This document shows, piece after piece, positions 17,091 through 19,421 of a DNA stretch of 35,452 nt (positions are counted from its first letter, which is position 1; the number at the start of each line of letters is the position of its first letter). Below the pieces are notes generated by a model, which worked only from the letters and a program-made list of their open reading frames with translations, did not search any database and was not told the origin of the DNA. Position numbers and translations under genes: made by a program. Source of the DNA: a bacterium (GTDB lineage: Bacteria > Zhuqueibacterota > QNDG01 > JAFGCO01). Location of the stretch: assembly GCA_016932575.1 (NCBI GenBank), contig JAFGCO010000053.1, forward strand, positions 1 to 35,452, given 5' to 3'.

Positions 17091-19421
17091 TTAATTATAA
17101 AGTTCCCAGACATATCCTATTCTAAAGGATCGTCCGGGCACTCCGAATCCATCCGTGAATGCGGCAGATGTGTCTAAAATATTGTCCAGAGAAAATGAGA
17201 TGATTCCATTTTGCATGATACGGAAAATACATTTGCCGTTTACAAGCCAGTCTGGCTGATGGTAAATAGTTAGAAGGTTTTCCAGTTCATATCCATAAAG
17301 GCTGTAAAACTCGGACCAGAAATGAGCCTGGATGACGATACGGCAATCCAGGTCATTGTCGAAAAATATATGGCGCGATGAGATTGTTGTTACTCCCCAA
17401 ATGTCCGGTCGTTCAAGCATCGATGTTCGCTGTTCCGTAGCGCGGGAGAGATTGCACACCAATGATGCCTGAAAATGAGACCCGAGGGTGAGGCTGGTCT
17501 GTGTTTCACAGCCGTAATATGTCTGTTGTCCTTTATTCCGATATAGGATACGGCCATCTTCTTCATCTAATTTAAGCAGTTGATCGGATGTTCGATAATA
17601 CCCGCAAATGGATGTGTTAAATGCAGGGCGCTGAATACGAATTCCCGTATCCCAGGACCACGCATATTCCGGATGTAATGATCCGTTGGAGGCCATGCGG
17701 TTTGAAAAATGGAGAAGTGTCCAGTGATCTCCATATGCAGGAGCAGTTGGAAGAAAATGCAGGCCGGTTTCTTCTGCAAGGGTGGGCTCCCGGAAGTTAC
17801 GACCCAGTCCCAACCATGTGGTCAGGCTCGTGTCCCGATTAAAAATGAAAAGCCCCTTGCCAAAGATAAGAGATTCATTCCCCCGGCGGTGACAGCCCAT
17901 CTGCAAGTCGATTACACCATCTGTCAGCAATGTCTGACGCATCTGCAGAAGGGCCTCCCAGTCCACACGGCGGGCATCAATCGTATCTGCCGAGAGGGAC
18001 TGTTCTTCGACCTGGATCTGCAAGGCGCCGAAATTGTTCCTGAATGGGATCTGTTGTTCCACGGTCCATTGGTTTCGATGCCCCTGAAGCGTGTCTTTTT
18101 GTGAGGAATAGTGATCACGCAGACGATATTTTGTGTTTGTGTGATGCCAGCTCAGTTGAACCGGCCAGTTTCCATGATAAAAGGTGGAGCGGAGCATATG
18201 ATCCGCCTGATCACGTTTTAAATTCGGATCCGACATGAAGACTGTGTCCAAGGGTGCCGTGACAGGATACTGGAGATCGGATTTGAATACATTATGAAGG
18301 ATTGTGTAACCGATCCCGATAGCGGGGAATGGTTGCCACTGAATGTCGGATCGTATTTGCTGGCTGTGATGTGTATAGCTCGTTCCTTCGCCTTCATTAT
18401 GCAGAAGCATTCCTGATAACAAGCTGAAATTATCAGTAAATTTTTGGCCAAAGGTCATGTCGAGATCACTCCACTTATTTGGGCCGGTTCGATACACGGC
18501 TTTTGTATAGGGCTGCGGCATATTGATTGATTTTGATTGTATGAATAGAGGCCCTCCCATGGCATTTTGTCCCGGACAAGCGGAAAGCGGATGAAGGCCG
18601 ATGCTTTTCACCATTTCAACAGGGATCAGTCTTAAATCTGCCATGCCCGTTACCGGATCTTTGAGTGCAAATCCGTTTAAATTAATTTGTGATTGATACA
18701 AAGGAGAACCCCATATTCGCAGTCCTGCCCAGTTTCCACCGTAACCCAGATTTCTGTAGCGGATTCCAGGCAGATATTGAACGAGATCGCCGAGATGGCG
18801 GTAATTGATCTCGGGCGTCTGATCGATCTGAATCTGATGCACATAGATTTGTGCAGTCACTTCGGGAGGCCGGAAAGTGATCAGCAGAACACCTGCCATG
18901 ACAAACAATGCACGATGCTTTTGAATCCACTGAACAAGAAGCGGGACGACTGTTATAAAAATGATCGTATTTACAATAAGGTGGGTCAGATACAGAGGGG
19001 CTCCTGCAAGCATGCTGACACACAGCTGATCATAAGGAACGCTGCTGCTTACAAGGTATCCGAGCGTCGTGAGTGCTGCAAATAATAATGTGCAGAGGAA
19101 TCCTGCAAGTCCTGAAACGATGACCAAAGGTACCCCTTTTTTGATTATCAGATGCTTTGAAATGCCTCCGGCCGCTCCTGTGATGGTCATAGACAGGATC
19201 ATTGCGATCAGAAGCGGCGGCGGTGCAATGCCCTGTGGATTCAGAATCCCGTAAATGGTTTCTGTTGCTAATCCGCCGAGAATACCGAACCGGATTCCCA
19301 TAACATAGCCGCATAAAAATACGGTGGCTGTCACCAGTTCAACATTAGGAACAGCCATAAATGTGTAACCCAGGACCACACCCAGGGCAATAAAGGCGGC
19401 CAAAAGGACGTAAGGTTTCAT
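17091..19421 (-). CDS. ECF-transporter S-component-like domain fused to a TonB-dependent receptor
   Basis: One uninterrupted frame of 776 residues. Residues 1-168 are a polytopic membrane domain with about six hydrophobic helices (about 4-22, 29-46, 47-61, 68-87, 97-124, 143-166). PNVELVTATVFLCGYVMGIR (25-44) resembles ECF S-components of the cobalamin (CbrT-like) type. Residues 168-190 (KHRALFVMAGVLLITF, ending VTA before Q191) look like a signal peptide with a signal peptidase I site. Residues about 200-300 read as a TonB-receptor plug (LGDLVQYLPGIRYRNLGYGG, SQINLNGFALKDP, NAMGGPLFIQS). Residues about 305-776 are alternating beta-barrel strands ending GRSFRIGYVWELYN. The receptor part (about 586 residues) is BtuB-sized. 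No stop or ribosome-binding site separates the halves. The substrate is inferred, vitamin B12 being the best guess. A promoter lies at 19485-19513. Confidence 0.8.
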   Translation of the reverse strand: MKPYVLLAAFIALGVVLGYTFMAVPNVELVTATVFLCGYVMGIRFGILGGLATETIYGILNPQGIAPPPLLIAMILSMTITGAAGGISKHLIIKKGVPLVIVSGLAGFLCTLLFAALTTLGYLVSSSVPYDQLCVSMLAGAPLYLTHLIVNTIIFITVVPLLVQWIQKHRALFVMAGVLLITFRPPEVTAQIYVHQIQIDQTPEINYRHLGDLVQYLPGIRYRNLGYGGNWAGLRIWGSPLYQSQINLNGFALKDPVTGMADLRLIPVEMVKSIGLHPLSACPGQNAMGGPLFIQSKSINMPQPYTKAVYRTGPNKWSDLDMTFGQKFTDNFSLLSGMLLHNEGEGTSYTHHSQQIRSDIQWQPFPAIGIGYTILHNVFKSDLQYPVTAPLDTVFMSDPNLKRDQADHMLRSTFYHGNWPVQLSWHHTNTKYRLRDHYSSQKDTLQGHRNQWTVEQQIPFRNNFGALQIQVEEQSLSADTIDARRVDWEALLQMRQTLLTDGVIDLQMGCHRRGNESLIFGKGLFIFNRDTSLTTWLGLGRNFREPTLAEETGLHFLPTAPAYGDHWTLLHFSNRMASNGSLHPEYAWSWDTGIRIQRPAFNTSICGYYRTSDQLLKLDEEDGRILYRNKGQQTYYGCETQTSLTLGSHFQASLVCNLSRATEQRTSMLERPDIWGVTTISSRHIFFDNDLDCRIVIQAHFWSEFYSLYGYELENLLTIYHQPDWLVNGKCIFRIMQNGIISFSLDNILDTSAAFTDGFGVPGRSFRIGYVWELYN

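Follow-up and report, generated by a model that had tools for sequence, protein, structure and literature searches.

The stretch of DNA analysed here (the window, 35,452 nucleotides) stems from a bacterium of the Zhuqueibacterota, the phylum also called candidate division KSB1 (PMC11683472), and carries on its reverse strand a single gene joining an ECF S-component to a TonB-dependent receptor (Table 1). From its ATG start the frame runs without any internal stop, which bears out the first-pass annotation in its claim of one open frame of 776 codons; its residue numbering (ATT166, TTG172, ATG175 and VTA at 188–190) was likewise correct. Its further statement that the junction holds no in-frame ATG or GTG was mistaken, as ATG175 and GTG188 both lie in frame. 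Since these two codons are located within or behind the hydrophobic core of the junction, neither would yield a normal signal peptide, and we agree that no Shine-Dalgarno sequence is present upstream of ATT166, TTG172, ATG175 or GTG188. Codon-position GC remains even over the junction. A genome search found the fused gene to be single-copy in its own genome, and a scan of the genome contigs revealed no close relative of the whole protein.

Table 1. Coordinates of the fused gene and its parts in the window.
Feature	Coordinates	Strand	Evidence
Fused gene, S-component and TonB-dependent receptor, 776 aa	17091..19421	-	Single ORF
CbrT-like S-component domain of the ECF type with six helices, residues 1-168	18918..19421	-	PF12822, AlphaFold, VIA-align, family profile
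Junction, residues 165-190: QKHR (basic), 171-183 (hydrophobic), VTA↓Q as putative site for signal peptidase I	18852..18929	-	Sequence, hydropathy, model; cleavage inferred
Residues 196-290, plug domain	18552..18836	-	Pfam Plug, E 1.3e-6, above cut-off
Residues 305-776, beta-barrel	17094..18509	-	About 22 modelled strands, BtuB structural matches

The Pfam family ECF_trnsprt (PF12822) matches the first 172 residues at E 1.1e-5, with 26.0 bits staying under the cut-off of 30.7, so that it is the fold which settles the identity of this domain as an S-component. An AlphaFold model computed from an alignment of 60 sequences reaches a mean pLDDT of 96.0 and comprises seven helical elements. Structural comparison with VIA-align places FolT, ThiT, PanT, RibU and BioY along the whole domain at Z of about 13–16, with FolT and ThiT matching best and with Z 14–16 and alignment lengths of 155–170 residues for FolT, ThiT, RibU and PanT, while unrelated structures stay below Z 9; the domain thereby meets the definition of the six-helix S-component fold. 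A Foldseek search gave no match at E < 0.001, though ranks 1–18 were all S-components. Among relatives of the domain, PF12822 was detected at E ≤ 0.01 in 54 of 60, and the relative L098 exceeds the cut-off with 38.4 bits. Searching the PDB by phmmer with the window domain alone returned zero matches and a family profile was needed: the profile of the 60 sequences retrieved chain A of 6FNP at E 7.9e-6 as its sole match at E ≤ 1. This entry is ECF-CbrT, the vitamin B12 transporter of Lactobacillus delbrueckii (PMC5997447); 6FNP is absent from the VIA-align structure list, and nothing is inferred from that absence. A lack of S-component similarity in residues 1–168 had been named beforehand as an outcome that would refute the fusion, and profile and fold searches both found the similarity.

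In the receptor half (residues 191–776), the Pfam Plug family scores 29.3 bits against a cut-off of 23.9, and the receptor barrel family, aligned to residues 520–645, reaches 22.7 bits and stays just short of its cut-off of 27. The barrel is supported by its fold. The full-length AlphaFold model (mean pLDDT 87.8) shows the S domain, a short helix at 170–180, a low-confidence segment at 179–190, the plug and about 22 barrel strands, and in structural comparison of the receptor half Escherichia coli BtuB fills all of the first ten ranks (Z 35.7–37.1, 13–14% identity), with the top entry aligning over 526 residues at Z 37.1. Plug match, model and BtuB matches together satisfy the description of a BtuB-type TonB-dependent receptor with plug and 22-strand barrel. 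BtuB is also the best NCBIfam match, and as its 35.4 bits do not reach the equivalog cut-off of 836, we regard the receptor as BtuB-like, not as a BtuB equivalog. Inspection of residues 191–200 by eye revealed no clear TonB box.

Between the two domains lies the sequence KHRALFVMAGVLLITFRPPEVTA↓Q, with VTA as a putative signal peptidase I site. Signal segments were judged here from sequence, hydropathy and charge pattern without a signal-peptide predictor. The lysine and arginine residues of the S domain (2, 44, 89, 94, 95, 168 and 170) all fall into predicted cytoplasmic positions, as assigned from the known topology of S-components, and K168 and R170 immediately precede the hydrophobic segment; this segment hence follows a cytoplasmic end, an orientation that fits a signal peptide. 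A type I signal peptidase is encoded in the genome. Against cleavage stand the shortness of the segment (about 13 hydrophobic residues) and Arg184, which sits between core and cleavage site. We infer an internal signal peptide at the junction that would be cut by signal peptidase I, although this cleavage has not been shown.

Searching 82 genomes of the phylum with residues 1–176, we detected the S-component in 61, usually directly upstream of the same receptor type. The loci examined hold 78 distinct S sequences that are not fused, and for 55 of them a receptor of this type is the next gene on the strand. Most remaining unfused loci belong to Neomarinimicrobiota, where we infer that the next gene is exported and barrel-like and was missed by the receptor profile; at L061, L063, L069, L070, L079 and other loci of that group, the gene after S encodes an exported barrel-like protein that retains a plug remnant at most. 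Typically, as at L003, L006, L007, L008, L009, L011 and L018, the stop of the S gene overlaps the receptor start as ATGA. L033, L034 and L035 carry the receptor in the frame of the S gene with only one stop codon between (spacing 15, 0 and 6 bases, respectively), so that losing one stop, or readthrough, would fuse the genes.

Eight fused sequences were found in total: the window itself (family f1), G046 and G076 (f20), G023 (f15), G014, G022 and G026 (f9), and L068 (isolate BS750m-G18); the contig of G023 ends inside the barrel, G014 is truncated, and among the genomes examined the family of the window is represented by a single one. Separation of the two halves in all other genomes would have spoken against the fusion, and they were found both adjacent and joined; with the same pair being adjacent in most genomes of the phylum, the fusion is real and explicable as the merger of an ancestral gene pair. 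In a tree of 84 S domains the fusions require at least five state changes, also without the one long branch, and a single origin with all fusions in one clade was rejected (p-AU 0.0013). This test used a quick tree and a fused group defined after the fusions had been seen, and change counts alone cannot separate gain from loss. A sign of independent fusion is the partner in f9 (L036 2802–5645, L037, L038), which is another kind of BtuB-like receptor and carries a carboxypeptidase-regulatory-like domain. The fusion thus derives from a tightly coupled ancestral S-receptor pair widespread in the phylum, and such mergers occurred several times. The joins of all eight share a basic stretch, a hydrophobic stretch and a small-residue site after the sixth helix, with sites marked by eye as GHA↓N in G046, SAAA↓S in G076, YALA↓S in G023, SALA↓Q or SAFA↓Q in f9 and FAS in L068. 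The two f20 fusions, which belong to two genera, are identical at 10 of 13 linker positions with KIDYFKPRL being invariant, five of the ten identical positions having silently changed codons, whereas their S domains agree at 79 of 168 positions (47%) and their receptors at 187 of 571 (33%). A linker more conserved than both domains despite silent codon changes indicates that this junction is translated and selected.

Vitamin B12 is the probable, but not proven, substrate of the fused transporter, with evidence for cobalamin binding or transport being indirect only. The first-pass annotation had proposed cobalamin, which gains support from CbrT as the sole profile match in the PDB, from BtuB as the best fold match, and from riboswitches and gene distribution among relatives. 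A cobalamin riboswitch is located directly upstream of the S gene at eight loci (L006, L010, L011, L031, the fused L036, L076, L080 and L082), and at the fused L068 it is the nearest upstream element, the interval containing no ORF of 60 aa; at others (e.g. L033, L034, L046, L101, L111, L112 and L116) it follows the receptor and precedes a second one. None was found at the fused gene of the window, and the sole cobalamin riboswitch found in that genome (L052, C71:4498–4748) precedes another BtuB-like receptor gene. Full-length BtuC, counted at 290 bits or more, occurs in nine genomes of the phylum, eight of them without the S-component: of the 82 genomes, 60 have the S-component only, 8 BtuC only, 1 both and 13 neither. 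This near-exclusion (Fisher p 4e-5, not corrected for relatedness) is also visible within families (G009 versus G004; G077 versus G046 and G076). BtuC was not detected in the window genome, in which proteins with B12-binding domains are present.

EcfT, found in 76 of the 82 genomes, was not detected in the window genome (94.5% complete), neither by HMM nor with the EcfT of a relative as query, nor was it found in the near-complete f11 genomes G016 and G027. G016 carries one S-component despite having no detectable EcfT. Three further S-like proteins are encoded in the window genome, which together with the incompleteness of the assembly makes a gap at EcfT possible. Two S-component-like genes of the same genome (L053 and L055, on C7 and C63) adjoin genes for TonB-dependent receptors, which suggests further receptor/S-component pairs for other substrates. 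As solitary S-components such as BtuM and BioY are known, the absence of EcfT excludes only a demonstrated ECF transporter, not membership in the S-component family. Alternatively to an assembly gap, the S-component of the window might work alone, as BtuM is reported to do (PMC6072759).

In our preferred reading, to which we assign a probability of roughly 0.7, the gene encodes one precursor of two proteins for successive steps of B12 uptake that is split by signal peptidase I, a cleavage that is inferred and not shown. The S-component, whose fold is well supported and whose orientation is inferred, would span the inner membrane by its six helices, its C-terminal end remaining in the cytoplasm. 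The following hydrophobic segment would act as an internal signal peptide carrying the receptor to the periplasm, where the peptidase is presumed to cut after VTA190, so that the S-component would remain in the inner membrane while the BtuB-like receptor proceeds to the outer membrane. The benefit would probably lie in fixed 1:1 synthesis and coupled expression. Repeated fusion implies that the arrangement must be tolerable and is probably useful.

Of the three mechanisms considered at the outset, release by signal peptidase is the one we favour. Internal initiation at ATT166, TTG172 or ATG175, by which the receptor would be made with its own signal peptide and the fusion would be merely formal, is unlikely in the window, although it is plausible in f9. 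There, an in-frame ATG ahead of the signal peptide with GGGAGG 6–7 nt upstream is kept in three genomes, which makes a second start likely and might give two products from one frame, as far as can be read from sequence; the separate genes of relatives moreover use overlapping ATGA starts. The candidate codons of the window, however, lack any Shine-Dalgarno-like sequence, a start at ATG175 would deprive the signal peptide of its basic residues, no ATG precedes the signal segment in G076 or G023, and the protein-level conservation of the f20 linker also argues against an internal start.

That the chain stays uncut and forms a physical conduit, reaching across both membranes from the barrel to the S-component, appears very improbable to us. 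It is a single uninterrupted chain, and the same substrate would pass between its halves, but only about 12–20 residues (at most about 7 nm when extended) separate the end of the hydrophobic segment (about 183) from the plug (196). The periplasm is about 20 nm wide, and a linker of this length is too short to bridge it; a plausible cleavage site furthermore lies exactly in this linker, and the long spacers of f20 lend no support, as unfused relatives have them too. We give equally little credence to a chain that is uncut or slowly cut and tethers both B12 transporters across the periplasm, at least transiently during assembly. An error in assembly or sequencing by which two neighbouring genes were merged could be suspected in a metagenome assembly that is the single genome of its family among those examined; in relatives, moreover, the neighbouring genes share a few bases. 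We nevertheless hold such an error to be highly unlikely, as fusions recur in other lineages and other assemblies, and even assuming a one-base error the receptor frame of the window would have no usual start codon followed by a full signal peptide. With the f20 linker being translated and under selection, an error is hard to invoke.

The proteins of a diderm's two membranes are normally separate gene products, whereas under the two-protein precursor preferred here the whole uptake route would be contained in one. The fused gene makes testable how an outer-membrane protein can be delivered by an internal signal behind a polytopic protein, and in a large uncultured phylum mostly without BtuC the S-component emerges as the probable B12 transporter of the inner membrane. 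The first-pass annotation knew of no description of this architecture, which holds within the open-access literature we searched: it contained no fused S-component/TonB receptor, which is not proof of absence, and nothing relevant on internal-signal precursors or fbcH. As far as these papers go, the parts are known and their union as one precursor for two membranes is new.

Among known systems, CbrT shares the six-helix S fold and is the only sequence relative of the family profile in the PDB, but it is a separate protein working with an ECF module in a host without outer membrane, whereas searches of the window genome detected no EcfT. BtuM is an S-component-like B12 transporter in the inner membrane of Gram-negatives that can function without an ECF module and is co-localised with btuB (PMC6072759). 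It resembles the window protein in its membrane and its neighbour, and perhaps in needing no module, but is encoded by its own separate gene and showed no sequence relation in the family-profile search of the PDB. BtuB, the nearest relative in structure, has the same plug and 22-strand barrel at only 14% identity, while the fused receptor has an S-component ahead of it in the same chain. FbcH, the cytochrome b/c1 precursor of Bradyrhizobium, is cut by signal peptidase and resembles the precursor proposed here in its order: first a polytopic protein of the inner membrane, then an internal signal peptide, which is only inferred for the window, and last a second, exported protein. Both products of FbcH remain in one inner-membrane complex, whereas one product of the fused gene would proceed to the outer membrane.
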